Shown in pieces: positions 25,787-49,500 of a DNA stretch of 64,000 nt (position 1 is the stretch's first letter; every line of letters starts with the position of its first letter). The stretch is from Novosphingobium decolorationis (GTDB taxonomy: Bacteria; Pseudomonadota; Alphaproteobacteria; Sphingomonadales; Sphingomonadaceae), in the NCBI RefSeq assembly GCF_018417475.1, contig NZ_CP054856.1, positions 2,139,001 through 2,203,000 on the forward strand. Direction: 5' to 3'. The translations under genes and the position numbers were made by a program. Below the pieces are notes generated by a model. That model saw only the letters and a list, made by a program, of their open reading frames with translations, was not told the origin of the DNA and did not search any database.

Positions 25787-27085
<1,299 letters not shown>

Positions 27086-27116
27086 TCACACTTCAGGTAC
27101 TATTCGGACACAGGAC

Positions 27117-32038: not shown

Positions 32039-32149
32039 GCTGCGTATTCTCCCTCGCTCCTCGCGGCGAAGACTAGCATGGCGGCGGGCCGGCAAACCCG
32101 ACATGGATCAAGAAACCGCGCTTTTCCGGGAAAGCGCGCGACGCTCCGA

Positions 32150-32744: not shown

Positions 32745-33746
32745 TCATTCGGCAGGTACGGTCGAACCCGAGGCGCCCGGATGCAGGCGACGCTGGACGA
32801 ACGCCTTGCTGGTCTTCCAGGCCTCGGTGAAGGGATAGTGCATCTGCTCCCAGACCGACATGCGGCGGCCGCCTTCCATGCCCAGCACTTCCGCCTCGCC
32901 ATCGACGCAGGTGCCGAAGATACGATCAAGGAAGATGTAAGTGTTGCAGTAATTGCTGCGGCTGCCCTCGAAATCCTGCGAGTGGTGCACGCTGTGGTGT
33001 TCGGTGGTGTTGAACACATAGCCCCACCAGCGCGGCGTGTTGAAGCGGATGTTGGCGTGCTGGTAGATGCTGATCGCCATACCCAGCGAACCTGCGAGCA
33101 GCGCGGCGCGCGGCAGGAAGTCGAAGAAGCCACCGATGCCAAGGCCGATCAGGAAGATCTCGATCGGGCTGCCGATCGATCCCTTGTTGATGTTGAGCTG
33201 GGTAATGTAGTGGTGCACCGAGTGGGTCAGCCACAGCGGGTACCAGTTGTGCATGCCGCGGTGCATCCAGTAGTAGCAGATGTCCGCGAAGAGCGTGATC
33301 AGGAAGGCCTGCAGCAGGAGCGGCATGTCCGTGAACCAGGCGAACTTTTCCCAGTTGAAGGCCGCCAGGATGTGTTCGGCCCAGACATCGCTGCCAAAGT
33401 GCTTACCCACCGCGCGGATCAGCGTGTAGGCGATGGCGACGTAGAACAGGTCGACGACCAGTTCCTTCCAGGTAAGACGCCAGCTCTGGTAGCGCGGGCT
33501 CACCCATTCCAGCACGTAGAGCAGCGCCTTGAAGCCGATGCCGATGCCGATTGCGGTCGAGGTCTTGGCAATGGAATCGGGCGCGTACATCCAGAACAGC
33601 ACGAGCGCGACAAGCACCGCGGGCTGAAACCAGGTGAAGATGAAACGCTTTACCGGGCCACCCTCGACCCGGCCGAGGTTTTCCCAGCCGATAGTGACGG
33701 GAGAGTCAGCCCCGATGATACGTTTTCCTACGCGAACTCCGTCCAT
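32745..33746 (-). CDS. Sterol desaturase / fatty acid hydroxylase family protein 1
   Basis: Integral-membrane di-iron hydroxylase of 333 residues. The histidine clusters are complete: H162-x3-H166, H175-x2-HH, H230 and HH251-x2-HH255. Several hydrophobic segments surround them. Family members hydroxylate or desaturate sterols, fatty acids, ceramides, carotenoids and alkylglycerols; the substrate here is not readable. It has a paralogue at 39578-40576, and both are preceded by the dyad proposed to bind the NikR-like regulators, so a role linked to the nitrogen operon is suggested. One half-site touches its start codon. Confidence 0.88.
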   Translation of the reverse strand: MDGVRVGKRIIGADSPVTIGWENLGRVEGGPVKRFIFTWFQPAVLVALVLFWMYAPDSIAKTSTAIGIGIGFKALLYVLEWVSPRYQSWRLTWKELVVDLFYVAIAYTLIRAVGKHFGSDVWAEHILAAFNWEKFAWFTDMPLLLQAFLITLFADICYYWMHRGMHNWYPLWLTHSVHHYITQLNINKGSIGSPIEIFLIGLGIGGFFDFLPRAALLAGSLGMAISIYQHANIRFNTPRWWGYVFNTTEHHSVHHSQDFEGSRSNYCNTYIFLDRIFGTCVDGEAEVLGMEGGRRMSVWEQMHYPFTEAWKTSKAFVQRRLHPGASGSTVPAE

Positions 33747-34256
33747 ATTACCTACCCCCGTAATACGCAGCCAATCGTTCTAGTAATACTGAATACAGGT
33801 ATCGTAATAATCGATTCCGCAGCTGTCCATGCCCAATTGGGCCTGGAGCGCATATTATTGCCGCAGCACTGTTTTTTCCGGTTTTCTTGGTGCGCCGAAA
33901 GGCACCTGCAGGCACAAAATGCGCAGAATCCCGAAGTTTGCGCCCGACCGCTTTGCCGGCCGGATCGCCCGCTCCCTAAACGCCAAGCGTCTCACGAAGG
34001 CCCTTTGCGCGCAAGGCCGGGCCGACAAGCCCTTGGACCGCCGTGCAAACCCGACCGTTCGGGCACCTCCACACAGAGCTGATTCGCGCGCGCCCGCGCG
34101 TGAGGGTCCCGCGCGCGGCGTGTTCGGGCGCATGGCCCCGGCCCGGCATGCGCAAAGGCAATTGCCGCCCCCCGCCTGCCCGGTTAGGCTCGGATAAACC
34201 GGCGCCGCGCCGTCGCGCGGGACCGGAGCGCCCCCGCGACAGCGAGCAAGGATGCC
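33747..34256. other. Divergent intergenic region with half-site array
   Basis: 510 bases between hydroxylase 1 and the sulfotransferase. The hydroxylase side holds four TATTAC/GTAATA half-sites, at 33746-33751, 33760-33766, 33783-33789 and 33804-33810. The rest (about 33830-34240) is GC-rich; I see no supported gene there. Confidence 0.6.
33783..33810. promoter_or_regulatory. NikR-type operator, site 1
   Basis: GTAATAC-N14-GTAATAA, one mismatch from the dyad consensus GTATTAC-N14-GTAATAC, and 28 bases long. It lies 37 bases upstream of the hydroxylase 1 start codon. Further half-sites at 33760-33766 and 33746-33751 give a 21-23 base periodicity. Confidence 0.65.
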
Positions 34257-35828
34257 ATGACACTCGAAGACCAGGCCCGCACGGCCCTGCGACGCGGCGA
34301 CATCGCCGGAGCCGCCACGGCCGCGCAGACTCTCTGCCAGAGCGAACCCAGCCATCCCGCAGGCCCGTTCCTGGCCGGAATGGCCGCGGCGGAAAGCGGG
34401 CAATTCGGCAAGGCGCTTCCCCTGCTTCAGCGCGCCGCGCAGATGGCACCCGGGAACGCCGAGTATCTCGCCCAGCTGGCCAAGACGCTGATCCTGCTGC
34501 GACGCGACGGCGAGGCCGGCGAAGTGGCCGCGCGCGCGCTGGCGCTCCCCTGCACGGATCCGCTCGCGCTCGACACGCTGGGCTGCGTGCTGGCGCGGCT
34601 GGGCGACCACGAAGCCTCGCTTGCCCCTTTCACCCGCGCGGTGGACGGCGCGCCCGACAACTTCGACTACCGCTACAACCTTGCCGCAGCGCTGGGCTTT
34701 ACGGGAAAAGTCGAGGAGGCCCGTACGCATTACGAGACGATCCTCGCCGCCGATCCCGGCAATGCGCGGGTGCATTACGCCCTCTCGATCGTGGCGCGCC
34801 AGACGCGCGAGGCCAACAATGTGGCGCGCCTTGAAAACGTGCTCGCCAGCGACCCGCCGCCCGGCGACACGCTGCGCCTGCGCTACGCGCTGGCCAAGGA
34901 ACTGGAGGATATCGGCGCCCCGGCCGAGGCCTTTGCCCAGCTTCACGCCGCAAACACCGCGCACAAGCGCGCGACGGGCTATGACTTTGCGCAGGACGCG
35001 GCCATCTTCGAGGCGCTCGAAACGCTCTTCCAGCGCACCGACACCGCGCTCGCCACCCAGCCGGGCTGCCCCGATGCCGCTCCGATCTTCGTGGTCGGCA
35101 TGCCGCGCACGGGCACCACGCTGGTCGACCGTATCCTCTCCTCGCACCGCGACGTGGAGGCGACCGGCGAGCTGCAGGCAATGCCGCTGGCGGTAAAGCA
35201 GATGGCCCGCACGCCCTCGCGCCAGGTCATCGATGCCCCGACGATCGCGGCAAGCGCGAACTGCGCGCCCGCCGCCATCGGTGAGGCCTACCTTGTCCGC
35301 GCGCGCCATCATCGGCGCAGCAAGACGCCCCGCTTCACCGACAAGCTGCCCGCCAATTTCCTTTATATCGGCCACATCCTGCAAGCGCTGCCGAATGCCA
35401 GGATCGTGTGCCTGCGCCGCGGCGCTATGGACACGGTCTGGAGCAACCTGCGCAATCTGTTCGCCACGACGTCGGCCTACTACGCCTATTCCTATGACCT
35501 CATGGACACCGCCCGCTACTACGCGCGTTTCGATGCGCTGATGGCGTTCTGGGAGACGCGTTTTCCGGGACGGGTACTCCAGTTCGGCTACGAGGCGCTG
35601 GTCGATAACCAGGAGGAGGAAACCCGCCGTCTCCTGGCCCATTGCGAGCTCGACTGGGATGCGGCCTGCCTCGACTTTCATCGCAACACCGCCGCCGTCG
35701 CAACGCCCAGCGCCGCACAGGTGCGCCGCACGCTCAACCGCGACGGGATCGGGCGCTGGAAGACCCACGCCGCCGACATGGAGAAGGTTGCCGCCTTCTT
35801 CCACGCGCGCGGCATAGCGCTCAACTGA
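34257..35828 (+). CDS. TPR-repeat sulfotransferase
   Basis: Protein of 523 residues. The first about 260 residues are tetratricopeptide-type helical repeats; the C-terminal half is a PAPS-dependent sulfotransferase with the 5'-phosphosulfate loop FVVGMPRTGTTLVDRILSSH near residue 280. LPANFLYIGHI and IVCLRRGAMDTVWSN (3'-phosphate region) follow. Such fusions are common in Alphaproteobacteria; acceptors are mostly unknown. AAGGA lies 7 bases before the ATG. A hairpin terminator follows. Confidence 0.88.
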   Translation: MTLEDQARTALRRGDIAGAATAAQTLCQSEPSHPAGPFLAGMAAAESGQFGKALPLLQRAAQMAPGNAEYLAQLAKTLILLRRDGEAGEVAARALALPCTDPLALDTLGCVLARLGDHEASLAPFTRAVDGAPDNFDYRYNLAAALGFTGKVEEARTHYETILAADPGNARVHYALSIVARQTREANNVARLENVLASDPPPGDTLRLRYALAKELEDIGAPAEAFAQLHAANTAHKRATGYDFAQDAAIFEALETLFQRTDTALATQPGCPDAAPIFVVGMPRTGTTLVDRILSSHRDVEATGELQAMPLAVKQMARTPSRQVIDAPTIAASANCAPAAIGEAYLVRARHHRRSKTPRFTDKLPANFLYIGHILQALPNARIVCLRRGAMDTVWSNLRNLFATTSAYYAYSYDLMDTARYYARFDALMAFWETRFPGRVLQFGYEALVDNQEEETRRLLAHCELDWDAACLDFHRNTAAVATPSAAQVRRTLNRDGIGRWKTHAADMEKVAAFFHARGIALN

Positions 35829-35855
35829 ACATCCTTACCCAGCCGGCACACGAAA

Positions 35856-35885
35856 AGGGCGCGGAGACTGAAGTCCCCGCGCCCT
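35856..35885 (+). terminator. Hairpin downstream of sulfotransferase
   Basis: AGGGCGCGG (35856-35864) pairs with CCGCGCCCT (35877-35885); the loop can form a further GACT/AGTC stem. Only a short T-containing tail follows. Confidence 0.6.
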
Positions 35886-35922
35886 CTCGTTCCAGGAGCC
35901 GTCAGCCCGGCCCTGCGCTTTA

Positions 35923-36968
35923 GAGCGGTTTTCGACCGTTCTGAATCGGTCTGGGATTCCCTTCGGGCGCGATTTCTGATTCAGAATCCGTGCTGGTGAA
36001 GGAGGCCGGCATGGATGGCTCTTTCGATGGATTTGCGCACTCGGCTGTTGGCAGCGGTGGACAGTGGATCGAGTTGCCGTGCTGCGGCGGCCCGGTTCGG
36101 TGTTGCACCATCAACGGCGGTCCGTTGGCGGGCACAGCAGCGCGAGACGGGTGACATAGCCCCAAAGCCGCGCGGCGGGGATATGCGCTCGCGGCGGGTG
36201 GAAGAGCGGGCAGCGGACATTCTGGCCATTTGGGAGGAGCGCAGGGACATCACCCTCGAAGAACTACGTCTGGCGCTTGCGGACAAGGGAATGGCCGTTT
36301 CCGTAGCCGGGCTACATCGCTTTTTTGTTCGCCGTGGCCTGACGCGCAAAAAAAGACAGGCCATGCGATAGAGCAAGATCGACCAGACGTCCTGAAACAG
36401 CGTCAGGACTGGTTCGAGGGTCAACTCGATCTCGAACCGGAGCGCCTGGTCTTCATCGACGAAACCTGGACCGCGACCAATATGACCCGCAGCCACGGAC
36501 GTTGCCCGAAAGGCGAGCGACTGCGGATGGGCTTCCCGCACGGGCACCGCAAAACCACCACTCTCGTCGCTGGCCTGCGCATGACTGGCATGGTCGCGCC
36601 CATGGTGCTCGATGGACCGATTAACGGTGACTGGTTCGAAGCCTACGTCGCTCAGGTCCTCGTCCCGGAACTGCGGCCCGGCGACGTCGTCATCATGGAC
36701 AACCTGTCGAGCCACAAGCGCGCATCGGTGCAGGTGCTCATCGAGGCTGCAGGCGCAACCCTGCGCTTTCTCCCGCCCTACAGCCCAGACTTCAACCCGA
36801 TCGAGAAAGCGTTCTCCCGCTTGAAGGCCATGCTCCGTAAAGCGGGCGAGCGAACGGTCAGCGGCCTGTGGAGCTTGATCGGCAAACTCGTCGATATCTT
36901 CCAGCCTCAGGAATGCGCCAACTACTTCAGATCGTGCGGCTATGAACCAGAATGATCGAAAACTGCTC
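35923..36968 (+). mobile_element. IS630-family insertion sequence
   Basis: Element of about 1046 bp with inverted ends (GAGCGGTTTTCGACCGTTCTG at left, GAGCAGTTTTCGATCATTCTG at right, 17 of 21 identical), flanked on both sides by TA, the IS630 target dinucleotide (35921-35922 and 36969-36970). The right TA is part of the TAG stop codon of the TonB receptor gene on the other strand, so insertion occurred at that stop without changing the protein. Confidence 0.88.
36015..36955 (+). CDS. IS630 transposase, made by -1 frameshift
   Basis: Two overlapping frames. The first (36015-36371, 118 residues) has the helix-turn-helix part with CRAAAARFGVAPSTAVRW. The second, in the -1 frame and ending at 36955, carries the DDE catalytic core: FIDETWTATNM, VVIMDNLSSHK and LPPYSPDFNPIEKAFSRLK. 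A run of seven A at 36348-36354 lies in the overlap and is a credible slippery site for -1 frameshifting, as known for this family. Fused product about 312 residues. GGAGG lies before the 36015 ATG. Confidence 0.85.
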
Positions 36969-39442
36969 TAGAAGCGCACGGTGCCCTGTACGCCGATAGT
37001 GCGCGGCTGGGCCACCGAGCGCGCGTAGTAGCGCGAGATCACCCCGTCGTTGACCAGGTTGCGGCGGGTCAGGTCGTTGCTGACGCCGGTTACCGCGTAG
37101 GTGTCGAAGATGTTGGTCGCGAAGACACCCACGTCGAAACGGTCGGTCTTGTAGGTGATGTTGGCCTGGTGCATCCAGTAATCCGGCAGCTTCTCGCCGC
37201 CGCCACGGCTGCCCACGCGGGTCAGGATGTTCCCGGTATAGGTCGCAGTCCAGCCGAAGTTGAGCGCGTTGTCGCCCACCGGCAGCTCGTAGGTCGCCCC
37301 GATCGCGCCCTTGTTCTTGGCCGAGCCGGGCAGACGGTCGCCCGAGAAGGCACCGACAAGATCGCCACCGGCAATCGAGAGCAGATCGGGCACGTCCTCG
37401 GTCAGGTGCGCATCAAGGTAGGAGTAGTTGCCGCGGATCGAGAGGCCGGGCAGCGGCTGCGCCTGGAACGAGACGTCGATGCCCTTCGACACCGCCTTCC
37501 CGCCGTTCGACGTGATGCCGATGGCGCCGTAGGTGGTCTGACCATCAAGCTGGATGCCATCCCAAGAAACATGGAAGGCCGCCAGCGTGAGCATCAGCTT
37601 GTTGTCGAACAGCTGAGCGCGCATGCCGATTTCGGCGTTCTTGGTTTCGTCCGGACCGAAGTCGAGTTCGTTGGGCAGGGCGCACAGCGTCTGGCCGTTC
37701 TGCTGCCCGCCAGCCTCGTGGATGTCGATGACTTCCTGGCTGCACGGCGCCACGCGGTTCACGCCGCCAATGCGGTAGCCGGTCGACCAGGTGCCGTAGA
37801 CCATGAACTCGGGCGCGATGTTCCACGAGGCGTTGATCTTGTAGACAAGGCCGTCCTTCGACGTGCTGCCCGAGCGCGAGCTGTAGTCATCGTCCCAGAG
37901 CGGCAGGTAGGAGCCCCCGTTCACCCAGGCATCGTACTTGTAGTAGCGCAAGCCCCCGGTGACCTGCAGGTCATCGGTGAAGTGGACGCTCGCCTCGCCG
38001 TAGAGGCCCTTCTCATCGTTGGTCGAGCGCACGAACGAGGAGTACTCATGCGCGTAGCCGTCCACCGAGGGGTCGGTCTCGAGGTCAGTGCCCCAATTCT
38101 CGTTCGCCCAAGCCGGGAAGCCGGGCACGTATTCGTCGTAGTTCGAGCGGTACGACTGGCGGTTCCAGAAGGCACCGGCCACAAAGCTGAACGGTCCGTC
38201 GAAGGTCGAGACGAAGCGCAACTCGTTGGTGAAGGCGTGCTCCTTCTGGTTCGACTGGTTGTAGCTCGAGAACCCGGGAAAATGTTCGTAGTCGTAGTCG
38301 AGGTCGATCAGGAGGTCGGTGTTGTCGCCCTGATACTCGGCCTTGCGCTGGGTATAGGCCGAGACGAACACCACGTTGACCGCGTCCGCGACGTTGCCCT
38401 CGACCTCGAGCGAGAGGAGGTCGCCGCTGCGCTTGGCGGGCTCCATGTAGCGCCACGGGCCCTCGTAGCGGCCCTCACCCACGACACCGCCGCCATTGGC
38501 CGAACGGCCGTCGGTCTTGGTCTCCTGATGCGCGTAGGTCACGTAGACCTTGAGATCGTCGGCGTAGAAGCCGAGCTGGTTGCGCGTGGTGAAGGTGCGC
38601 TCGAAGTTGAGATCCTTGCCGCGCGTGAAGTTCGCGTCCTGGTCCGCCTCACTGCCCAGCGGATTGTCGACACCGCCCGGCTGCGGAAGCGACGTGCCCG
38701 GCTCCTGCAGCAGGTAGGGATAGTCGATGAAGCCCGGGGTGAAGTAGTAGCCGGTCGCCGAGCGGAACGCGATCGTGTCCTCCACGAGCGGCACGTTGAC
38801 GACGCCGTAGCCGTTGTAGCCGGTATCGCCCGAGTGGGCCATGTCGAAGACGCGGCCGCTGCCCTCGAACGAGAATTCGCCGGCGTCGGGGCGGTTGGGC
38901 ATGTTGCGCATCGCGCCCGCCAGCGTGCCCAGACCATAGAGCGTACCCTGGGGGCCAAGGAGCGTCTCGACGCGGTTGATGTCGATCAGCTTGAAGTCGT
39001 AGTACATGGGCACTTCGCCCAGGTACATGCCGACGGCCGAGTTCGAGTTGTCACCGGCGGTGGCCGACGTGTCGCTGGCCGAAAGGCCGCGCATGACAAT
39101 CGTGCCCGCGCCGCGCGGACCGTTGTCGAGGATCGTCACACCCGGCGTGAAGGCGCCCAGGTTGCGCATGTCGTCGATGTGCTGTTCCTGCAGATCATCG
39201 CCGCTGATCGCGCTGATGTTGATCGGCGTTTCCATGATCGTGGTGTCGCGGCGGGTGGCCGAGACGACGATCGCCGAGCCGACCAGTGCAGGCGCATCGG
39301 CAGCCGCCGCAGCGCTAGCCGGAGCCGCGACATCCGCCGGTACGTCGGCCGCCTCATCGGCCAGCGCGGGCGAAGCGAGCGCCGCGCAGGTAATGCCGGT
39401 CGCGCACAAGAGTCCGGCCTTGAATTGTCCCCGAATTGACAT
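36968..39442 (-). CDS. TonB-dependent receptor 2
   Basis: Outer-membrane receptor of 824 residues. Signal peptide ending ALASPALADE, an alanine-rich linker, then a plug domain (IVVSATRRDTTIMETPINISAIS, IVMRGLS, GPQGTLYGLGTLAGAM) and a barrel with terminal phenylalanine (VQGTVRF). The substrate is unknown. The gene starts 135 bases after hydroxylase 2 on the same strand, so both may be transcribed from the operator-bearing promoter at about 40.68 kb; no dyad was seen directly in front of the receptor. This would tie it to the ABC importer regulon. Its stop codon is shared with the IS630 target site. Confidence 0.9.
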   Translation of the reverse strand: MSIRGQFKAGLLCATGITCAALASPALADEAADVPADVAAPASAAAAADAPALVGSAIVVSATRRDTTIMETPINISAISGDDLQEQHIDDMRNLGAFTPGVTILDNGPRGAGTIVMRGLSASDTSATAGDNSNSAVGMYLGEVPMYYDFKLIDINRVETLLGPQGTLYGLGTLAGAMRNMPNRPDAGEFSFEGSGRVFDMAHSGDTGYNGYGVVNVPLVEDTIAFRSATGYYFTPGFIDYPYLLQEPGTSLPQPGGVDNPLGSEADQDANFTRGKDLNFERTFTTRNQLGFYADDLKVYVTYAHQETKTDGRSANGGGVVGEGRYEGPWRYMEPAKRSGDLLSLEVEGNVADAVNVVFVSAYTQRKAEYQGDNTDLLIDLDYDYEHFPGFSSYNQSNQKEHAFTNELRFVSTFDGPFSFVAGAFWNRQSYRSNYDEYVPGFPAWANENWGTDLETDPSVDGYAHEYSSFVRSTNDEKGLYGEASVHFTDDLQVTGGLRYYKYDAWVNGGSYLPLWDDDYSSRSGSTSKDGLVYKINASWNIAPEFMVYGTWSTGYRIGGVNRVAPCSQEVIDIHEAGGQQNGQTLCALPNELDFGPDETKNAEIGMRAQLFDNKLMLTLAAFHVSWDGIQLDGQTTYGAIGITSNGGKAVSKGIDVSFQAQPLPGLSIRGNYSYLDAHLTEDVPDLLSIAGGDLVGAFSGDRLPGSAKNKGAIGATYELPVGDNALNFGWTATYTGNILTRVGSRGGGEKLPDYWMHQANITYKTDRFDVGVFATNIFDTYAVTGVSNDLTRRNLVNDGVISRYYARSVAQPRTIGVQGTVRF

Positions 39443-39577
39443 GCAAACCCCCTGTAGATTTTAGTTAAAGCTTGCCCGTTCCCTGACAGCACACCGCCAG
39501 GGCCGGATCCGATTGGTTGGTGGAATGAAGACCCCGGCGCACACGGGATGCTGCGCGCGCCGGATGCTCCCGGTGCG

Positions 39578-40576
39578 TTACGGCTGGCCGGTCGACGCCT
39601 TCGTGGTCTTGGTCGTGCTGCGCAGGCGATCGATCACCGGCTGGAAGGGAAACAGGAACTGCTCCCGGATCGTGAGGCGCCGCAGGTCGTCCTGGCCGAC
39701 CACCCTCGCCTCACCCTCGCGGTAGGTGCCCATCAGGCGGTCGAGCAGGATCAGCGAATTGGCATAGTTGCAGCGCGTGCTCTCGTAGTCGGTCGAGTGA
39801 TGCAGGCTGTGGTGGCGGATGGTGGTGAAGAAGAAGGCGTAGAACGCCGGCGGGTTCGCGCGCACATTGGCATGGGCGTAGGTCGAGACGACGCCGAGCA
39901 CGTTGAAGGCGCAGAACACCGGAACCATATCGAAATCGAAGAAGGCAAGAACGCTTAGACCGATCAGGAACAGCTCGATCGGGTTGCCGACATAGCCCTT
40001 CATCGCGTTGAGCTGGGTGACGTGATGGTGCGGCGCGTGGGTCAGCCAGAACGGCGTCGAATTGTGCATCAGGCGGTGCATCCAGTACTGCCCGAACTCG
40101 AACAGGACCATGACCATCACGACCTGCACGAGGAACGGCAGTTCACCCGCCCAGGGCGTCGCGATGCCGAGCGTTTCCTTGAGCGCGAACAGCGGTCCAT
40201 CGCCCGCCACCTCGACCAGCCAGCCAATGGCGGTGTAGCCCAGCGCAACGTAGAAGACGTCGGTCGCGAATTCGCGGCCGTTCATGCGCCAACCTTCGTG
40301 GCGCTCGAACGCCCACTCGAGAAGTTGCACGAACGTCGTCACCACAAGTCCGGCAACAACCAGCGACCAGGGGCTCTGCGTCAGCGAGGCGGGCGCGAAC
40401 ATCCAGAAGAGAACGACGGCCAGAACCGTGAAGGGCGGAAGAAGATCGACGAACAGCGCCTTGAGTCCTGCCGCACGCGGCGCCGGAGCAAAGTCAATTC
40501 CGACAGCCGAAGCGTTGGAAGACACAGGTTCGTGCTCCTCGTGGTAATCCGGACTGAAGGTCGGCGTTCGAGCCAT
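39578..40576 (-). CDS. Sterol desaturase / fatty acid hydroxylase family protein 2
   Basis: Paralogue of the protein at 32745-33746, with 332 residues. Histidine clusters H167-x3-H171, H180-x2-HH, H235 and HH256-x2-HH260 are complete, between hydrophobic segments. The N-terminal about 35 residues are polar and specific to this copy. AGGGAGA precedes the ATG at 40576. Upstream is a dyad for the NikR-like regulators, and downstream lies TonB receptor 2. Substrate unknown; membrane lipid or an imported compound are both possible. Confidence 0.88.
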   Translation of the reverse strand: MARTPTFSPDYHEEHEPVSSNASAVGIDFAPAPRAAGLKALFVDLLPPFTVLAVVLFWMFAPASLTQSPWSLVVAGLVVTTFVQLLEWAFERHEGWRMNGREFATDVFYVALGYTAIGWLVEVAGDGPLFALKETLGIATPWAGELPFLVQVVMVMVLFEFGQYWMHRLMHNSTPFWLTHAPHHHVTQLNAMKGYVGNPIELFLIGLSVLAFFDFDMVPVFCAFNVLGVVSTYAHANVRANPPAFYAFFFTTIRHHSLHHSTDYESTRCNYANSLILLDRLMGTYREGEARVVGQDDLRRLTIREQFLFPFQPVIDRLRSTTKTTKASTGQP

Positions 40577-40674
40577 TACGAATCTCCCTCATCGCGCCGA
40601 AATACGGCGCAACCCTTGCGTTCTCCTCCCCGTGTCCAAGCTCGCTCTCAGTGGCGAATACGGACACGGTATTG

Positions 40675-40702
40675 ATATTACAGTTTGCGTCAAGAGTATT
40701 AA
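40675..40702. promoter_or_regulatory. NikR-type operator, site 2
   Basis: ATATTAC-N14-GTATTAA, 98 bases upstream of hydroxylase 2. Read on the minus strand the spacer contains TTGACG, a good -35 hexamer, at the same offset as in site 5, so bound protein would cover the promoter. Confidence 0.6.
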
Positions 40703-40923
40703 TTCGCGACCGCAACATTGCGCATTGAAAAGTCGTAACTCGCGGAAATGCTTACCCTTGCCTCCTTATCCGCGTGTGCAAATCGCTCCGGGACGCTGGC
40801 GTTTTGCAGTGCGAAAGCGTGATTCGCCGCACTCTGGCCTCGTGCTGTACCCCTTATGCCACACCCGGATGCGAGCGGACTTTCGGGCACCACACCCCGG
40901 ACATGACCTCCCACCCCGCCTTG

Positions 40924-40952
40924 ATATTACCGAAGAGCGAACGTGGTAATAT
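40924..40952. promoter_or_regulatory. NikR-type operator, site 3
   Basis: Perfect 8-base inverted repeat ATATTACC-N13-GGTAATAT, 29 bases in all (spacer one longer than the other sites when measured between TATTAC and GTAATA). It lies 112 bases before regulator gene 1, suggesting autoregulation. Confidence 0.7.
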
Positions 40953-41064
40953 TGCCGATGGACAAGCCGAATACTTTTCGCGATTGAGGAGAGACAGCGC
41001 GCCCGATCCTTCAAGGATGCCTTGCCCCGGCGCGGGCCCCAAGACGAGACGAGTTGAGAGACCG

Positions 41065-41562
41065 ATGAGCACCGAACTTGCCCGCCTCAGCATGAGCCTG
41101 CCCGCCGACCTGTTCCGCCAGCTCGACATCATGGTCGAGGAACGCGGCCTGCCTTCGCGCTCGCAGCTGATCGCCGAACTGATCCGCCACTCGCTTGCCA
41201 AGCATGAGGCGCGCACCCGTCCCGACGAGATGCTCGCGGGCACGATCACCATTGTCTATCGCGGCGACCGGGGCCGTGTGCGCCAGCAGCTTGCCGAGCG
41301 CCAGACCGAGTTCCTCAAGGAAGTGATCTCCTCGCAACATGTCTTTCTCGAGGATGACCAGTCGCTCGAGGTGCTGCTGGTCCAGGGCCCGGCCGTGCGT
41401 CTGGCCGACCTGGCCGACGCGCTGCGCGGCATTCGCGGCGTCAGCCAGCTCGAACTCGTCACGACCACCGCACTGCTCCCCCCGCTGCACGAGCAGGACG
41501 GCCTGGACGCCGCAACCTCGGCGGTGACCGGGAAAGCGGCGCGCGGCGCCGAAGCGGCCTGA
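41065..41562 (+). CDS. NikR-like ribbon-helix-helix regulator 1 lacking nickel ligands
   Basis: Regulator of 165 residues with NikR architecture: N-terminal ribbon-helix-helix (RLSMSLPADLFRQLDIMVEERG, SRSQLIAELIRHSL) and a C-terminal ACT-like domain (GTITIVYRGDRG to LELVTTTALLP). Aligning by the H-x-H...C block, the E. coli nickel ligands H76, H87, H89 and C95 become T81, H92, F94 and S100: three of four are lost. It therefore should not sense nickel in the usual way and may bind a small organic ligand. Probably autoregulated through site 3. It is a paralogue of the gene at 44548. Confidence 0.85.
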   Translation: MSTELARLSMSLPADLFRQLDIMVEERGLPSRSQLIAELIRHSLAKHEARTRPDEMLAGTITIVYRGDRGRVRQQLAERQTEFLKEVISSQHVFLEDDQSLEVLLVQGPAVRLADLADALRGIRGVSQLELVTTTALLPPLHEQDGLDAATSAVTGKAARGAEAA

Positions 41563-41567
41563 ATGCG

Positions 41568-41618
41568 CTTCTTCGCGCACGGATAGCGATCGCGCGCGAA
41601 GAGAAGCCCCGCGGGGCT
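41568..41618 (+). terminator. Terminator-like structures after regulator 1
   Basis: CTTCTTCGCGC pairs with GCGCGAAGAGAAG with a bulge, followed by the palindrome AGCCCCGCGGGGCT at 41605-41618. No T run. They lie just downstream of the regulator stop codon. Confidence 0.4.
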
Positions 41619-41712
41619 GAACAGGGGCGCAAAGCCGCAGAAATGCGACCCTGAAGCCGTGTCCTGCGCGCGGCATCCCAGGTGACGACCTGTCAGCACT
41701 GCGCCCGCGTCG

Positions 41713-41740
41713 GTATTACACAATCTTCACGAAGTAATAC
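41713..41740. promoter_or_regulatory. NikR-type operator, site 4
   Basis: Perfect dyad GTATTAC-N14-GTAATAC, 28 bases, 60 bases upstream of the importer's binding-protein gene. It is followed at 41747-41758 by GATGGACAAGCC, shared with the region past site 3. This is the best match and defines the consensus. Confidence 0.75.
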
Positions 41741-41800
41741 ATTTTGGATGGACAAGCCCTTCCAGACGCGCAATGTTGCGCTGCGAAAGGGGACTGATTC

Positions 41801-42883
41801 ATGCTCGCATCCATCCGCAAGGCCGCCGCCCTCGCCGTGACCGCCGGAGCACTCTTCACCGCGTCGTGCTCCGGGCCTGCGGACGCGCCCGAGACCCCGC
41901 GCACCGAGTTCAACATCGGCTGGTCGATCTACGCCGGCTGGATGCCCTGGCCCTATGCCCAGCAGGCCGGCATCGTGAAGAAGTGGGCCGACAAGTACGG
42001 CATCACGATCAACATCGTGCAGGTGAACGACTACGTCGAATCGGTGAACCAGTACACCGCGGGCAAGCTCGACGGCGTAACGGTCGCCAACATGGACGCG
42101 CTCACCATCCCGGCCGCGGGCGGCAAGGACACCAGCGCGATCATCGTGGGCGACTACTCGAACGGCAACGACGGCGTCCTCCTCAAGAACGCATCGGATC
42201 TCAAGGCGATCAAGGGCCAGCCGGTCAACCTGGTCGAGCTTTCGGTCTCGCACTACCTGCTCGCCCGAGCGCTCGAATCGGTGAACATGACCTTGCGCGA
42301 CGTGAACACCATCAACACCGCCGATGCCGACATCGTGGGCGCCTTTGCCAGCCCCGACGTCAAGGCCGCGGTGGCCTGGAACCCGCAGCTCTCCTCGATG
42401 AAGGCGCAGGACGGCGCCCACGAGGTCTTCAGCTCGGCCGATATTCCCGGCGAAATCCTCGACCTTCTCGTCGTCGACACCAAGACGCTGAAGGCCAACC
42501 CCAAGCTCGGCAAGGCGCTGACCGGCATCTGGTACGAAACGGTCGCGCTGATGCAGCAGCAGAATGAACAGGGCAAGGAGGCGCGCGCGGCGATGGCCAA
42601 GCTCGCCGGCGCCAGCCCCGCGCAGTTCGACAGCCAGCTTGCCACCACTCACCTCTACGCCGACCCGGCCGAGGCGGTGAAGGCGACCGACGATGCTGCG
42701 CTTGTCACCACCATGACCCGCGTGCGCGACTTCAGCTTCGCGCAGGGGCTCTTCGGCGGTGCGCCTTCGGCCGACACCGTGGGCATGTCCTTCCCCGGCG
42801 GCAAGACGCTGGGCAATGCGCAGAACGTCACGCTGCGTTTCGACGACAGCTTCATGAAGATGGCGGCCGACAAGAAGCTCTGA
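41801..42883 (+). CDS. ABC transporter substrate-binding protein (urea carboxylase-region type)
   Basis: Periplasmic binding protein of 360 residues. A signal peptide ending near TASC suggests a lipoprotein or simple secretion. FNIGWSIYAGWMPWPYAQQAGIVKKWADKYGI is typical of the NMT1/TauA-like family found beside urea/guanidine carboxylase genes. It heads an operon with permease, ATPase, regulator 2, UAAP1, UAAP2, carboxylase and allophanate hydrolase. The likely ligand is urea, guanidine or a related guanidino compound; sequence alone does not decide. Confidence 0.87.
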   Translation: MLASIRKAAALAVTAGALFTASCSGPADAPETPRTEFNIGWSIYAGWMPWPYAQQAGIVKKWADKYGITINIVQVNDYVESVNQYTAGKLDGVTVANMDALTIPAAGGKDTSAIIVGDYSNGNDGVLLKNASDLKAIKGQPVNLVELSVSHYLLARALESVNMTLRDVNTINTADADIVGAFASPDVKAAVAWNPQLSSMKAQDGAHEVFSSADIPGEILDLLVVDTKTLKANPKLGKALTGIWYETVALMQQQNEQGKEARAAMAKLAGASPAQFDSQLATTHLYADPAEAVKATDDAALVTTMTRVRDFSFAQGLFGGAPSADTVGMSFPGGKTLGNAQNVTLRFDDSFMKMAADKKL

Positions 42884-42940
42884 GCGGCCGCTTCCCTTCT
42901 CTTCCCCCCGAAATATCGAACCTGAGGTGAGGCGCCGCTT

Positions 42941-43756
42941 ATGCGTTGGGTGAATCGCCAGGTCGGCCGGAGCAACCGGATTTTCCTCGGATCGCTGCCG
43001 ATCCTGCTCCTCGTGCTGACCTACCTGTTCCTGGCCGTCCAGCGGCACGAGGCCAACCCGGCCGACAAGATCCTACCGCTTCCCTCGGCCATGGTCTCGA
43101 GCATGTCCGCGCTCATCATGGAGCCGGACAAGCTCTCCGGGCAGTTCATCTTCTGGGCCGACACGCTGGCCAGCCTCCAGCGCCTGGGCATCGGCCTTGG
43201 CATCTCGACGCTGATGGCGCTCGCGGTCGGCCTCGTGCTCGGCATCCTGCCGCCTGTGCGCGCTACCTTCGGGCCGCTGGTGACGGGCATCGCGGTGATC
43301 CCCCCGATTGCCCTTCTTCCCATCCTCTTCATCGCGCTCGGCCTTGGCGAGACGGCCAAGGTAGCGCTGATCGTGGTGGGCATTGCGCCGGTCATGATCC
43401 GCGACGTTGCCGCCCACGTCCAGGCGCTCCCACGCGAACTCATCATCAAGGCCCAGACGCTGGGCGCAAGCAGCTGGCAGGTGATGATCCGCGTCGCGCT
43501 GCCCCAGGCCATGCCCCGCCTGATCCAGGCGATCCGCCTCGCGCTGGGCCCGGCCTGGGTGTTCCTGATCTCGGCCGAGGCAATCGCGTCGGATGTCGGG
43601 CTTGGCTACCGTATCTTCCTGGTCCGCCGCTATCTCTCGATGGACGTGATCCTGCCCTACGTCGCCTGGATCGCGCTCCTCGCCATCGCCATCGACTTCG
43701 TCCTCGTCACGATCAGCAAGCGCGGCTTTGCCTGGGCCCATGGAGACGACCATTGA
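42941..43756 (+). CDS. ABC transporter permease
   Basis: Inner-membrane permease of 271 residues with about six hydrophobic segments and the cytoplasmic EAA loop AQTLGASSWQVMIRVALPQA. It matches the SsuC/TauC-like permeases that partner NMT1-type binding proteins. GAGGTGAGG precedes the ATG. Its stop codon overlaps the TTG start of the ATPase gene (TTGA). Confidence 0.9.
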   Translation: MRWVNRQVGRSNRIFLGSLPILLLVLTYLFLAVQRHEANPADKILPLPSAMVSSMSALIMEPDKLSGQFIFWADTLASLQRLGIGLGISTLMALAVGLVLGILPPVRATFGPLVTGIAVIPPIALLPILFIALGLGETAKVALIVVGIAPVMIRDVAAHVQALPRELIIKAQTLGASSWQVMIRVALPQAMPRLIQAIRLALGPAWVFLISAEAIASDVGLGYRIFLVRRYLSMDVILPYVAWIALLAIAIDFVLVTISKRGFAWAHGDDH

Positions 43757-44535
43757 GCAGCCTTCTCAGCCTCCGCAACGTCTGGGTCGAGTATGGGGAC
43801 AAGGTCATCATCGAGAACCTCAGCCTCGACATCGAGGAAGGGTCCTTCGTTTCGGTGGTCGGCCCCTCGGGCGCAGGCAAGAGCAGTTTCCTGCGCCTGA
43901 TCCTGGGCCAGGAAGGCCCGAGCCGCGGGAAGATCCTGCTCGACGGCACCCCGCTGCCGCCCGAATGCGGGCCCGACCGCGGTGTCGTCTTCCAGCGCTA
44001 TTCCACCTTCCCGCACCTGACCGCCCTGCGCAACGTCATGTTCGGGCACGAATGCGACGGCGCGCCCTTTTCCGCCCGCCTGTTCGGTTCGGCCAAACGC
44101 AAGGCCCGCGAGGAAGCCGCCGAGATGCTGAGCGCGGTGGGGCTGGGCGCCAATCTCGACAGCTACCCGGCCGAGATGTCGGGCGGCATGCAACAGCGTC
44201 TGGCGATTGCCCAGGCGCTCATCAAGCGCCCGCGCATCCTGCTTCTAGATGAGCCGCTCGGCGCGCTCGATCCGGGCATCCGCGCGGACATGCACGAGCT
44301 CATCTCGCGGCTGTGGCGCGACTATGCGCTGACCATCGTCATGGTCACCCACGACATCCGCGAGGCCTTCACCCTGGGGACCCGTGTGCTCACGCTCGAC
44401 AAGCGCCGCCACGACCCCCAGGCGCCGCACCGTTACGGCGCGACGGTGGTCTACGACCTGCCGCTCGACAAGGAGAATGCGCAGGTCACCTACCACGCCG
44501 AGCGTATTACTATTGACGAAATTCGTAATAACTGA
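43753..44535 (+). CDS. ABC transporter ATP-binding protein
   Basis: ATPase of 260 residues: Walker A GPSGAGKS, signature MSGGMQQR, Walker B ILLLDEPLG, and H-loop VTHD. Start is inferred as TTG at 43753, which overlaps the permease stop and gives the right N-terminus (LSLRNVWVEYG); no ATG is suitably placed. The last codons (RITIDEIRNN) coincide with operator site 5, so the protein tail and a regulatory DNA site are encoded together. Confidence 0.9.
   Translation: MSSLLSLRNVWVEYGDKVIIENLSLDIEEGSFVSVVGPSGAGKSSFLRLILGQEGPSRGKILLDGTPLPPECGPDRGVVFQRYSTFPHLTALRNVMFGHECDGAPFSARLFGSAKRKAREEAAEMLSAVGLGANLDSYPAEMSGGMQQRLAIAQALIKRPRILLLDEPLGALDPGIRADMHELISRLWRDYALTIVMVTHDIREAFTLGTRVLTLDKRRHDPQAPHRYGATVVYDLPLDKENAQVTYHAERITIDEIRNN
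44504..44531. promoter_or_regulatory. NikR-type operator, site 5, inside the ATPase gene end
   Basis: GTATTAC-N14-GTAATAA, one base from the perfect dyad. It ends 16 bases before the start of regulator gene 2. The spacer contains TTGACG two bases after the first half-site, the same offset as in site 2. This suggests an internal promoter for regulator 2 and the catabolic genes. Confidence 0.7.
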
Positions 44536-44547
44536 GAGACCAGAGGC

Positions 44548-45039
44548 ATGAGCTCCGAATCCGCTTCCCTTGCCCGTCTCAGCATGAGCTTGCCCGCCGA
44601 ACTGTTCCGGCAGCTCGACGTGATGGTGGCGGAACGGGCCCTGCCCTCGCGCTCGCAGCTGATCGCCGAACTGATCCGCCAGGCCCTGGCCGAGCACGAA
44701 TCGCTGTTCCGTCCCGACGAGATGCTCGCGGGCACGATCACCATGGTCTACCGCGGCGAGCGCGGGCGCATGCGCCACCAGCTCTTCCGCACCCAGTCCG
44801 GCTTCCTGAAGGAGATCATCTCCTCGCAGCACATCTTCCTTGAGCACGACCGCTCGCTGGAAGTGCTCCTGGTGCAGGGCCCCTACGCCCGCCTCAAGGA
44901 GTTGTGCGACGCGATCCGCCGCCTGCGCGGCCTTCAGCAGCTCGAACTGGTGACCACCACCTCGCTTCTGCCGCCGCTCCACAAGCAGGACCGCGGCGCC
45001 CCCGACACGCCCCCTCACATTCCCGGAGCGCATCCATGA
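44548..45039 (+). CDS. NikR-like ribbon-helix-helix regulator 2 lacking nickel ligands
   Basis: Paralogue of regulator 1, 163 residues, with the same ribbon-helix-helix (RLSMSLPAELFRQLDVMV, SRSQLIAELIRQ) and ACT-like domain. NikR ligands H76, H87, H89 and C95 correspond to S84, H95, F97 and S103, so the same three are lost. The near-identical DNA-reading strand (LARLSMSLP) of the two proteins predicts that both read the same operator. Its stop overlaps the UAAP1 start (ATGA), so it is translated with the catabolic genes. Confidence 0.86.
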   Translation: MSSESASLARLSMSLPAELFRQLDVMVAERALPSRSQLIAELIRQALAEHESLFRPDEMLAGTITMVYRGERGRMRHQLFRTQSGFLKEIISSQHIFLEHDRSLEVLLVQGPYARLKELCDAIRRLRGLQQLELVTTTSLLPPLHKQDRGAPDTPPHIPGAHP

Positions 45040-45877: not shown

Positions 45878-46513
45878 ATGACCGCTGATCCCTACCTGGC
45901 CGATCTTTCCGGCGCCGTTGTCCACGACGAGACCGTTCCCGCGCGCGGCCCCTGGCTGCACCACATCAAGGCGGGCGAAACGCTGCGCATCGTGGACCTG
46001 GAGGGCAACCAGGCCGTCGACTTCCTGCTCTATTCCGAGGCCGACGACGCCGAGCGCTACAGCGCGCAGGACACCGTTTCGGCGCAGGGCAACCTGTTCC
46101 TGCGCGAGGGCACCGTGCTGCGCTCGAACGAGGGCAACCCGATGATGACCATCGCGGGCACCTCGGTCGCCTACCACGACACCATCGGCGGCGCGTGCTC
46201 GTGCGAATCGAACACGCTGCGCTACGGCCACCACACCAAGGCCCAGCACGCCTGCGTCGAGAACTTCCTCAACGCCAACCTCACCGAGGGGCGCACCAAG
46301 CGCGACATCGTCTCGAACATCAACTTCTTCATGAATGTTCCGGTCGAGGCGGACGGGTCGCTGGGCATCGTCGATGGCATTTCGGCACCGGGCCTCACCG
46401 TCGATCTCAAGGCCGAGATGGACGTCATCGTCGTCGTCTCGAACTGCCCGCAGATCAACAACCCCTGCAACGGCTTCAACCCGAGCCCCGTCCGGATGAT
46501 CGTGACCGCATGA
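45878..46513 (+). CDS. DUF1989 protein UAAP2 (carboxyguanidine deiminase subunit type)
   Basis: Second DUF1989 protein, 211 residues, distantly related to its neighbour: IVDLEGNQAVDFLLY, GACSCESNTLRYG, CVENFLNANL, AEMDVIVVVSNCPQINNPCNGFNPSPVR. It is the expected partner subunit of UAAP1. AAAGGA lies ahead of the ATG, 14 bases after the UAAP1 stop; its stop overlaps the carboxylase start (ATGA), consistent with fixed stoichiometry. Confidence 0.88.
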   Translation: MTADPYLADLSGAVVHDETVPARGPWLHHIKAGETLRIVDLEGNQAVDFLLYSEADDAERYSAQDTVSAQGNLFLREGTVLRSNEGNPMMTIAGTSVAYHDTIGGACSCESNTLRYGHHTKAQHACVENFLNANLTEGRTKRDIVSNINFFMNVPVEADGSLGIVDGISAPGLTVDLKAEMDVIVVVSNCPQINNPCNGFNPSPVRMIVTA

Positions 46514-49500
46514 CCTTCGACACCGTCCTGATCGCCAACAGGGGCGCGATCGCAACCCGCATCATCCGTACCCTGCGCCGCATGGGCCTGCGCTCGGTGG
46601 CGGTCTACTCCAAGGCCGACGAGGGCTCGCTCCACGTCTCCGAGGCCGACGTCGCGGTCTGCATCGGCGAAGCCAAGCCTTCCGAGAGCTACCTCGACAT
46701 CGCAGCGATCATTGCGGCGGCGAGGGAAACCGGCGCGGGGGCGATCCACCCGGGCTACGGCTTCCTTTCCGAGAACCTCGAATTCGCGCAGGCCTGCGCC
46801 GATGCGGGAATCGTCTTCGTGGGCCCGACGCCCGAGAACATCTCGACCTTCGGCCTCAAGCACTCTGCCCGCGCGCTCGCCGCCGCGCACGACGTGCCCC
46901 TGGCGCCCGGCACCGACCTCCTCACCGACGAGGAAGAGGCCGTCGCGGCCGCCGCCAGGATCGGCTACCCGATCATGCTCAAGGCCACCGCGGGCGGCGG
47001 CGGCATCGGCATGCGCGTGTGCGAGAACGAAGGTGACGTGCGCGAGGGCTTCGCCTCGGTCAAGCGCCAGGGCCAGGCGAGCTTTGGCGATGCGGGCGTG
47101 TTCCTTGAAAGCTACATTCGCCGCGCGCGCCACATCGAGGTCCAGCTCTTCGGCGATGGCGAAGGCAAGGTCGTGGCGCTCGGCGAACGCGACTGCTCGC
47201 TCCAGCGCCGCAACCAGAAGGTGGTCGAGGAAAGCCCCGCCTCCTGCCTTCCCCAAGCCGTGCGCGAGGAACTCATCGCCTCGGCCATTCGCCTGGGCGA
47301 AGCGGCGAACTACCGCTCGGCCGGCACCGTGGAATTCCTCTACGATGCCGACAAGGAGCAGTTCTTCTTCCTGGAAATGAACACGCGTCTCCAGGTCGAA
47401 CATGGCGTGACCGAGGAAGTCTTCGGCATCGACCTTGTCGAGTGGATGATCCGCGGCGGCGCGGGCGACTACGCCTTCCTGTCCGAAGATCACGGCGCGC
47501 CCCGGGGCCACGCGGTCCAGCTGCGCATCTACGCCGAGGACCCCTCGCTCGACTACCGCCCGACCACGGGCATCCTCACCAACGTGGAATTCCCGGACGA
47601 CATCCGCGTCGAGACCTGGGTCGCGGGCGGCAGCGAGATCACCGCCTGGTACGATCCCATGCTCGCCAAGCTGATCGTTCACGCGCCCACCCGCGAGGAC
47701 GCGGTCGCGGCCGTGCAGAAGGTCGCCGACACGGCCCGCATCGACGGTATCGAGACCAACCTGCGCTGGCTGCGCGACGTTACCCGCTGCGAGGAATTCA
47801 CCAGCGGCGCGGTCTCCACCCGCGTCCTCGACACCATTTCCTACCAGCCCACCGGCTTTCGCGTGGTTGCAGGCGGCACGGCGACGACCGTGCAGGACTG
47901 GCCGGGCCGCCAGAAGTACTGGGCGGTCGGCGTGCCCCCTTCGGGCCCGATGGACGACCAGTCGTTCCGCCTCGGCAACCGTCTGCTCGGCAATCCCGAA
48001 GGCACCGAGGGCCTGGAGATCACCGTCACCGGCCCGACGCTTGCCTTCACGGCCCCTGCCCGCATCTGCCTGATGGGCGCGGACTTCGGCGCGCGGCTCG
48101 ACGACCAGCCGGTCGCGCGCGGCACCGTGCTTGAGATTGCAGCCGGCCAGACTCTCTCGATGGGCCGGGCGACCGGCGGCGGCATGCGCGGCTACATCCT
48201 CTTTGCGGGCGGCCTCGATGTCGCGCCGTACCTGGGCAGCTGCTCGACCTTCGAGCTCGGCCAGTTCGGCGGCCCCGCCGCGCGCCGCCTGCTGGCAGGT
48301 GACACCCTGCACCTGGGCGGCAAGCCCACGGGGACGGCGCTCCCCACGCCCGAGATCCCCGAAGTTTCGACCGAGTGGACGCTGCGCGTCCTCTACGGCC
48401 CCCACGGCGCGCCCGACTTCTTCACCGACGATGACATCGGCACGCTCGTCTCGGCGAGCTGGCAGGTCCACTACAACTCCAACCGCACCGGCGTGCGCCT
48501 GGTCGGCCCCAAGCCGCAATGGGCGCGTACCGACGGCGGCGAGGCGGGCCTGCACCCCTCCAACATCCACGACAACGCCTACGCCATCGGCGCGGTGGAT
48601 TTCACCGGCGACATGCCGATCATCCTGGGCCCCGATGGCCCGTCGCTGGGCGGCTTCGTGTGCCCCTTCGTCGTGATCGCGGCGGACTTGTGGAAGGTCG
48701 GCCAGCTCACCGCAGGCGACAAGGTACGCTTCGTGCCGGTGACCATGGACGACGCCGACGCGGCCCACGCCGCGCAGCGCGCCTTCCTCGAAAGCGGCAC
48801 GCCCGTACCGGCCACGCCCCTGCGCGACGTCGCGGACCTCGACCCGATCCTCGCCCAGCTTCCCGAAGGCCCGGGCCGTCCGCGCACGGTCTACCGCCAG
48901 CAGGGCGACCGCAACATCCTCATCGAGTACGGCGACATCGTCCTCGACGTGGAGCTGCGCATCCGCGTCCACGCGCTGATGGCCGAACTGGAGAAGATGG
49001 CGCTGCCCGGCGTGATCGACATCGTGCCCGGCATCCGCTCGCTCCAGTTCCACTTCGATGGCGAAGTGCTGCGCCAGAAGGACGCGCTGGACGCCCTCAT
49101 CTCCGCCGAGGAGCGTCTGGGCGACCTGGAGGACTTCACCGTCCCCTCGCGCGTTGTCCACCTGCCCTTGAGCTGGCGCGATCCGGCCACTCTCGAGACA
49201 ATCGAGAAGTACATGTCGATCGTGCGCGACGATGCGCCCTGGTGCCCCGACAACATCGAGTTCATCCGCCGCGTCAATGGGCTTCCCAATGCCGATGCGG
49301 TCAACAACATCGTGTTCGACGCCAACTACATCGTGCTGGGTCTGGGCGACGTCTACCTCGGCGCACCGGTGGCGACCCCGATGGACCCGCGCCACCGCCT
49401 CGTCACCACCAAGTACAATCCGGCGCGCACCTGGACACCGCCCAACGTCGTGGGCATCGGTGGCGCCTACATGTGCATCTACGGCATGGAAGGTCCGGGC

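Follow-up and report, generated by a model that had tools for sequence, protein, structure and literature searches.

This work suggests that two NikR-like proteins encoded in a 64,000-nucleotide stretch of Novosphingobium decolorationis DNA (contig NZ_CP054856.1, positions 2,139,001 to 2,203,000; the whole stretch is called the window) are probably the nickel-independent sensor of a dedicated guanidine-utilisation regulon, whose importer, catabolic genes, regulator genes and two membrane hydroxylase genes lie behind five copies of one inverted repeat (the dyad). The results that carry this reading were computed: the sites themselves, their conservation, the inheritance of the regulator together with the dyad, the loss of the nickel site, a carboxylase sequence of the guanidine type, and the equivalence in position between two of the dyads and the guanidine riboswitches of relatives.

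The dyad sites and the genes behind them

The pattern GTATTAC-N14-GTAATAC was scored with mismatches counted for each site. On re-reading, the five sites, the perfect copy at 41713-41740 and the single spacer of 15 nucleotides were all as the first-pass annotation of this DNA had given them. The predicted operators are the following:

33783..33810, minus strand, predicted operator site 1, GTAATACTGAATACAGGTATCGTAATAA, 2 mismatches, 37 bp 5' of hydroxylase 1
40675..40702, minus strand, predicted operator site 2, ATATTACAGTTTGCGTCAAGAGTATTAA, 3 mismatches, 5' of hydroxylase 2
40924..40952, plus strand, predicted operator site 3, ATATTAC-N15-GTAATAT, spacer longer by one, 5' of regulator 1
41713..41740, plus strand, predicted operator site 4, GTATTACACAATCTTCACGAAGTAATAC, 0 mismatches (perfect), 5' of the importer operon
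44504..44531, plus strand, predicted operator site 5, GTATTACTATTGACGAAATTCGTAATAA, 1 mismatch, within the 3' end of the ATPase gene and 17 bp upstream of regulator 2

The four sites with a 14-nucleotide spacer compare with 0.08 expected in the window, and none of 100 shuffled sequences contained four. Across the 4.75 Mb genome (two contigs), the pattern with up to two mismatches was matched four times, three of them inside the locus; the fourth match (L003), between sigma-factor-like and TPR-type genes named by eye, looks like chance and was set aside. The spacer of site 2, read on the minus strand, contains the -35-like sequence CTTGACG. An extra half-site pair, ATATTAC-N8-GTAATAC, was seen at the start of hydroxylase 1 (window ~33745-33766), and N8 pairs also occur in two related loci (L045 and L046).

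The genes of the locus are:

32745..33746, minus strand, hydroxylase 1, PF04116 fatty-acid hydroxylase superfamily (profile match)
36968..39442, minus strand, TonB-dependent receptor, following hydroxylase 2 in the same orientation (profile match)
39578..40576, minus strand, hydroxylase 2, PF04116 (profile match)
41065..41562, plus strand, regulator 1, NikR-like (RHH_1 and NikR_C), 165 amino acids
41801..42883, plus strand, importer substrate-binding protein (SBP), TIGR03427, 530 bits (cut-off 334)
42941..43756, plus strand, importer permease (profile match)
43753..44535, plus strand, importer ATPase, start codon approximate (profile match)
44548..45039, plus strand, regulator 2, NikR-like, 163 amino acids
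45036..45863, plus strand, UAAP1 (DUF1989), likely carboxyguanidine deiminase subunit, TIGR03425, 312.6 bits (cut-off 206)
45878..46513, plus strand, UAAP2 (DUF1989), likely carboxyguanidine deiminase subunit, TIGR03424, 331 bits (cut-off 285)
46510..50106, plus strand, urea/guanidine carboxylase, Asp697 at the substrate position, TIGR02712, 1767 bits (cut-off 1304)
50103..51872, plus strand, allophanate hydrolase, TIGR02713, 738 bits (cut-off 511)
51940..52869, plus strand, beta-propeller-type protein, without an operator of its own here, matched in 55 of the 80 related loci described below

As judged by these profile matches, the gene content agrees with the earlier description of five units behind the sites, namely hydroxylase 1; hydroxylase 2 followed by the TonB receptor; regulator 1; the SBP, permease and ATPase; and regulator 2 with the DUF1989 pair, the carboxylase and the allophanate hydrolase.

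Conservation of the dyad and its inheritance with the regulator

Conservation was examined in the best 80 of 237 loci, which are mutually related and of which all 80 contain the ATPase and UAAP1, 79 the SBP, permease, UAAP2 and carboxylase, and 76 the allophanate hydrolase. When TATTAC-Nd-GTAATA pairs were collected in these loci for every spacing d from 0 to 40, 147 of the 154 pairs fell at d=14, with three at d=15, two at d=8 and two at d=31, while about 0.06 pairs per spacing were expected from the half-site frequency. The exact N15 pairs come from three of the 80 loci (L045-L047), each before regulator 1. Nearly all dyads with up to two mismatches (171 of 174) lie at most 450 bp ahead of a gene for a hydroxylase, an SBP, a regulator or a TonB receptor, and three lie elsewhere.

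Counts for each gene were made at up to three mismatches and within 350 bp upstream, with a downstream control. A dyad precedes the SBP gene in 79 of 79 copies, hydroxylase 2 in 42 of 44, and the regulator genes, counted under two query labels, in 40 of 55 and 32 of 47, as well as the propeller gene in 11 of 55 and the TPR gene in 1 of 23, and none was found upstream of the permease (0/79), ATPase (0/79), UAAP1 (0/80), UAAP2 (0/79), carboxylase (0/80) or allophanate hydrolase (0/76). The downstream control was zero for the SBP, both hydroxylases, the TonB and TPR genes, the permease, UAAP1, UAAP2 and the carboxylase. Among the alignment rows listed, the half-sites are constant and the spacers vary; when 133 distinct operators, a set chosen for TTG in the spacer, are oriented, their consensus has the core TAWTAC-N14-GTAWTA.

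Of the 198 family genomes, 26 have a close regulator (E<1e-60) and 31 have a UAAP2 above the TIGR03424 cut-off, and by a hand count from the listings all 26 regulator genomes fall among the 31. A 27th genome (G134) gave two weak regulator matches that look like canonical NikR, one of them without two of the ligands. In five UAAP2 loci without a regulator (L133-L137), the genes from the SBP to the allophanate hydrolase stand in unchanged order, and a dyad with up to three mismatches was found in none of these five; a LysR-type gene, recognised by eye from its translation, lies upstream of their importer and might represent a third way of controlling a guanidine locus. In eight loci with divergent regulators that were examined (L138-L145, from 8 of the 26 genomes), a dyad is present in all eight, in three of them at three mismatches only. 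The presence of the dyad thus follows that of the regulator within one family. The closest named matches to the window regulators, at 99%, come from Novosphingobium sp. BW1 and N. profundi. Within the stretches examined, 24 of 89 locus sets (the window included) hold two regulator copies and 65 hold one, and therefore the regulator pair seems to be a lineage feature.

Regulators with the NikR fold and without most of the nickel site

Both regulators match PF01402 (RHH) and PF08753 (NikR_C, ACT-like) over the cut-off, which bears out the claim that the window encodes two NikR-like proteins. When the predicted structure (mean predicted local distance difference test, pLDDT, 73) was searched with Foldseek, the best matches were NikR, with template modelling (TM) scores by query length of 0.36-0.65 among the 50 matches listed. 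The two proteins nevertheless score below the cut-offs of all five NikR models matched, the best scores being 95.8 bits (cut-off 105) and 82.5 bits (cut-off 105). The nickel ligands of E. coli NikR, as given in a passage of PMC7055735, are His76, His87, His89 and Cys95; at these positions the window regulators have Thr or Ser, His, Phe and Ser, so that one of the four is retained. Among 113 regulators, His87 is conserved in all 113, His89 in none (Phe in 99, Val in 14), Cys95 in none (Ser in 113) and His76 in one. Glu86, Gln91 and Ser100 are invariant in the 113, and the beta-strand Arg is retained in 113 of 113. At least two of the four nickel ligands are missing from each linked regulator examined; in the seven NikRs used for comparison, the four residues are HHHC in six and HHVS in one. 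In a 17-row tree, ten regulators from guanidine loci form one side of a branch with support of 97/94, with the canonical NikRs apart.

Regulators 1 and 2 have the beta-strand LARLSMSLP in common and would therefore be expected to recognise the same sites. The E. coli NikR operator is GTATGA-N16-TCATAC according to part of PMC7055735, and the window dyad, written as GTATTA-N16-TAATAC, has the same spacing and layout, in agreement with the earlier remark that both span 28 bases; binding of the window dyad by the regulators is a prediction from this geometry. No known nickel gene is among the genes identified behind the sites, and a search for urease in the organism's own genome returned nothing over the cut-off and one partial match of 25 bits.

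A carboxylase of the guanidine type

Asp697 of the window carboxylase aligns with Asn737 of the Kluyveromyces lactis urea carboxylase structure 3va7, which by the offset corresponds, we assume, to residue 1330, a substrate contact, in the full-length enzyme. Asp marks guanidine carboxylases and Asn urea carboxylases according to a passage of a review that leaves the position unnamed (PMC12186494). The motif was found in 98 of 101 sources scanned and in none of the other three, with Asp in 97 and Asn in one. This Asn carboxylase (L168, the second carboxylase copy in G371) lies beside an allophanate hydrolase gene, and neither UAAP genes nor a guanidine riboswitch were found in its stretch, which fits a urea enzyme. 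The DUF1989 pair and the allophanate hydrolase that characterise a guanidine carboxylase operon accompany the window carboxylase, which by its sequence is of the guanidine type.

Probable exchange of riboswitches, and hybrid loci

Among 190 genomes of the class, a carboxylase over the cut-off occurs in seven, the window's own and six others. A Guanidine-I riboswitch was found in all six of the others, and the window's own genome gave no match; Guanidine-I was over its cut-off in 10 of the 190 genomes, four of which are without such a carboxylase. All six alphaproteobacterial loci have Guanidine-I before the ATP-binding cassette (ABC) genes and Guanidine-II between the ATPase and UAAP1, and these two places are the places of window sites 4 and 5. 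No Guanidine-I was found in 198 family genomes; the genome scans of both class and family used stricter filters, at which weak matches are lost. A search with all Rfam families gave no match in the window and detected no guanidine riboswitch in L133-L138, L142 and L144, or in 14 of the 80 loci. Between 40400 and 41900 of the window there was no Rfam match even at E<=1; on these searches the locus is not a guanidine riboswitch regulon.

The dyad is also found outside the sphingomonads. On a plasmid of Asticcacaulis excentricus (Caulobacterales), a regulator of 61% identity is accompanied by a dyad (two mismatches; 0.00 expected) between the SBP and regulator genes, and a riboswitch was looked for at this locus and not found. 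In an alphaproteobacterium of another family (G407), a dyad with one mismatch lies between a divergent regulator and the SBP gene, with a Guanidine-II riboswitch before UAAP1. On a plasmid of Acinetobacter sp. NCu2D-2 (Gammaproteobacteria; L191), UAAP1 and UAAP2, a carboxylase, an allophanate hydrolase, ABC genes and a NikR-like regulator occur together with, by annotation, an SMR transporter and a 2-oxoglutarate (2OG)-Fe(II) oxygenase. Three dyads were found here while 0.06 were expected: one before the regulator unit, one before the unit of ABC genes and oxygenase, and one just before the Guanidine-I that leads UAAP1. Dyad and guanidine riboswitch therefore share loci in G407 and Acinetobacter, and in Acinetobacter both precede the same gene. 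The carboxylases of G407, Asticcacaulis and Acinetobacter also have the Asp.

In a sample of the phylum, 17 of 299 genomes gave a regulator match, and except for three family members and G407 these matches are weak, with E values of at least 4.9e-16. Five other stretches of this sample yielded four readable regulators, all with the four nickel ligands. More distant NikR-like relatives were seen in Acinetobacter baumannii records among the matches listed. The guanidine locus of G407 also contains a creatininase-like gene (below cut-off) and a type III glutamine synthetase gene (over cut-off) at L183:12594-14836.

Promoter context and the leader of hydroxylase 2

Among all dyads assigned to a gene at up to three mismatches, TTGAC stands at spacer position 10 in 40 of 42 hydroxylase 2 sites, 56 of 74 regulator sites, 4 of 11 hydroxylase 1 sites, 2 of 2 TonB sites and 0 of 95 SBP sites. 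A TAnnnT hexamer follows the TTGAC of hydroxylase 2 at about 16 bp (all -10 boxes were judged by eye only), and therefore a protein bound there would cover the -35 region, making repression likely. The importer dyad, in most rows listed, ends shortly upstream of a TGGACAA box, and therefore activation is possible at this promoter, as is repression. The importer leader (window 41741-41800) carries this conserved box and, in relatives, a GCAATGCTGCA...GAAAGGGG stretch before the start codon; no supported RNA fold was found in it.

Hydroxylase 2 has a conserved leader of ~92 nt whose 3' end is at the start codon:

40574..40666, minus strand, structured RNA leader of hydroxylase 2 (model R1, 63.3 bits; covariation)

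In its helix 3, 99.5% of cells are paired, and five of seven pairs show changes on both sides. The whole structure was reached by 0-1 of 500 shuffles, a test that related sequences inflate, and it stood above slid controls; helix 2 was picked from the very alignment used to test it, and its own support is therefore biased. The model, built from 30 leaders, has a single match in each of 15 family genomes (198 were searched); these 15 are all among the 26 regulator genomes, and the match lies on the contig of the regulator. It has no Rfam match, and the leader is a possible new cis-regulatory RNA.

Proposed mechanism and alternative explanations

We propose that a NikR-type tetramer would bind the dyad through the core TAWTAC-N14-GTAWTA. 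Where the dyad lies over the TTGAC box, as at hydroxylase 2 and most regulator sites, transcription would most likely be blocked, and at the importer, where it lies upstream of TGGACAA, binding could result in activation or repression. The C-terminal ACT-like domain, with its nickel ligands lost, would most likely bind guanidine or a close guanidino compound, and this binding would alter the affinity for the operator, so that the tetramer would leave it or, at the importer, activate from it. Importer, carboxyguanidine deiminase pair, carboxylase, allophanate hydrolase and hydroxylase 2 with the TonB receptor would then be switched on, as would hydroxylase 1 in this lineage. Regulation by a protein would thereby stand in for the pair of guanidine riboswitches that relatives carry at these two transcription units. 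Direct binding, the tetramer, the ligand, the sign of control and the role of the hydroxylases are what we infer from the computed results.

In a broader form, a NikR-fold clade stripped of its nickel ligands might be a class of guanidine sensors across Alpha- and Gammaproteobacteria, which would share loci with riboswitches in some lineages, replace both unit for unit in sphingomonads, and also govern a TonB receptor and hydroxylases that free guanidine from a larger compound, with the RNA leader as a second control of hydroxylase 2. We give this extended version an even chance.

Several observations weigh against the guanidine-sensor reading. Binding, the expression response and the ligand are predictions. 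The 80 loci are related to one another and are thus not independent, and regulator copies without an upstream dyad are common (15 of 55 and 15 of 47). The TonB gene has a dyad within 350 bp in 3 of 65 copies. The membership of hydroxylase 1 that the first-pass annotation had claimed is weaker than stated, since a dyad precedes only 10 of its 36 copies, although site 1 is present and its position is matched in close relatives. The downstream control was not zero for the regulator (19/55 and 4/47), the propeller (23/55), the ATPase (6/79) and the allophanate hydrolase (4/76), which we put down to the operators of the next gene. At the regulator sites no good -10 box was seen by eye after TTGAC, and the regulator 2 site has none that is convincing. 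The structure model shows the N-terminal ribbon as a low-confidence helix, eight of the 14 inner branches of the tree are open, the Acinetobacter row is long and its placement unsure, and His is still present at the H76 position in one of the 113 regulators. Two of the four ligands remain in the G407 regulator, which passes two NikR cut-offs and is perhaps an intermediate.

The alternative that survives best keeps the same regulators and operators and changes the ligand, which could be a substituted guanidine, urea, allophanate or a nitrogen-status signal. The TonB receptor and the two membrane hydroxylases do suggest a substrate larger than guanidine, and the oxygenase and SMR transporter beside the Acinetobacter regulator recall, by annotation only, the methylguanidine genes of which a part of PMC12508155 tells; neither the oxygenase nor its neighbour matched an NCBIfam family. 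However, in relatives these units are under guanidine riboswitches, which also occur together with the dyad in some loci; this points to guanidine or something close as the ligand and leaves a different signal unlikely, with perhaps one chance in several.

An ordinary nickel-responsive NikR regulon would explain the fold, the operator geometry and the two NikR cut-offs passed by the G407 regulator at a guanidine locus. Against it stand the near-complete loss of His76, His89 and Cys95, the scores of the window proteins under five NikR models, the lack of a urease beyond the partial match and the lack of a known nickel gene among the identified targets, and we regard this explanation as very improbable and reject it. 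We also reject, as similarly improbable, the idea that the dyad is bound by another factor with the NikR-like genes as passengers. The spacer TTG could be a plain -35 box and binding by the NikR-like proteins is predicted only, but the dyad follows the regulator in one family and at three loci outside the sphingomonads, and in geometry it corresponds to the NikR operator.

Chance or mere promoter conservation scarcely deserves credence and was rejected on the shuffles and the conservation: the genome-wide count is not above that of a reversed pattern (four dyads vs four at up to two mismatches, 14 vs 45 at up to three), and 119 of 199 family genomes contain some match at up to two mismatches, but the pairs gather at one spacing and avoid the permease and carboxylase genes. 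Since the count is not above the control, no weight was placed on counts, and the signal of the dyad is its clustering and conservation. The scan of genome and relatives that had been suggested showed conservation across sphingomonad loci and no genome-wide excess. The dedicated guanidine regulon therefore stands as the preferred reading, and its coherence, as claimed at first pass, is supported by the co-inheritance of dyad and regulator, the loci of another order and class, and the operator geometry.

The hydroxylases and other features of the window

The best NCBIfam match of both hydroxylases is OlsE (NF052566), at 69.7 and 78.4 bits and far below the cut-off of 475, so that by score neither belongs to the OlsE ornithine lipid hydroxylases. 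Because hydroxylation of methylguanidine occurs beside a guanidine carboxylase, as a part of PMC12508155 describes, we conjecture that they may act on a larger guanidino compound imported by the TonB receptor and release guanidine from it.

Transposase-like reading frames, spread over two frames, lie at 36015-36955, between the TPR and TonB genes. They are presumably IS630-like. The TPR-TonB gap is ~1.1 kb in the window and ~0.1 kb in L045. Further away, a 4-hydroxybenzoate 3-monooxygenase (over cut-off) and a divergent HpaA-like AraC-type regulator (below cut-off) occupy 25787-27980, and a radical SAM protein like the anaerobic sulfatase maturases (over the TIGR03942 cut-off) is encoded at 30752-32104 on the minus strand.

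Relation to known systems

The literature search, made mostly over papers outside subscription journals, found no description of this regulon, in line with the earlier claim that it is undescribed, and no work joining NikR with a guanidine carboxylase. The passages that name both NikR and urea carboxylase do not describe it, and a passage of a 2025 review lists the protein sensor for guanidine as unknown. The locus offers concrete candidates for guanidine-sensor proteins together with their likely operator. It allows the idea that a protein has taken over from RNA sensors at matching transcription units to be tested, and hybrid loci contain both kinds; it links membrane hydroxylases to guanidine nutrition; and it suggests that a metal-sensor fold has been re-used for an organic cation.

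In Vreelandella boliviensis, mgdH and mgdL encode a 2OG/Fe(II) enzyme and a lyase for methylguanidine demethylation (part of PMC12508155). The likeness is that a hydroxylase gene adjoins carboxylase genes, and that there an alkylguanidine is made usable; the window differs in having PF04116 membrane hydroxylases. With the guanidine carboxylase pathway the locus shares the importer, carboxylase, carboxyguanidine deiminase and allophanate hydrolase, all present, and the Asp at the specificity position, and to this pathway it adds the TonB receptor, two PF04116 hydroxylases with the dyad, and the NikR-like regulators. Like the Guanidine-I and Guanidine-II riboswitches (RF00442 and RF01068), the predicted regulators would act on the importer and deiminase-carboxylase units and presumably respond to the same signal, in contrast to them through a protein and a DNA operator instead of RNA. 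NikR itself, the nickel-responsive RHH repressor of E. coli, H. pylori and Pyrococcus horikoshii, resembles the window regulators in its RHH and NikR_C architecture, in being the best structural match, in the retained beta-strand Arg, and in a 28 bp operator of the same layout as the predicted one. Unlike NikR, the window regulators are without most of the nickel ligands, fall into a separate group of the tree and under the curated cut-offs, and have guanidine genes as their predicted targets. A known fold and a known pathway would thus be joined here in a new sensor role.

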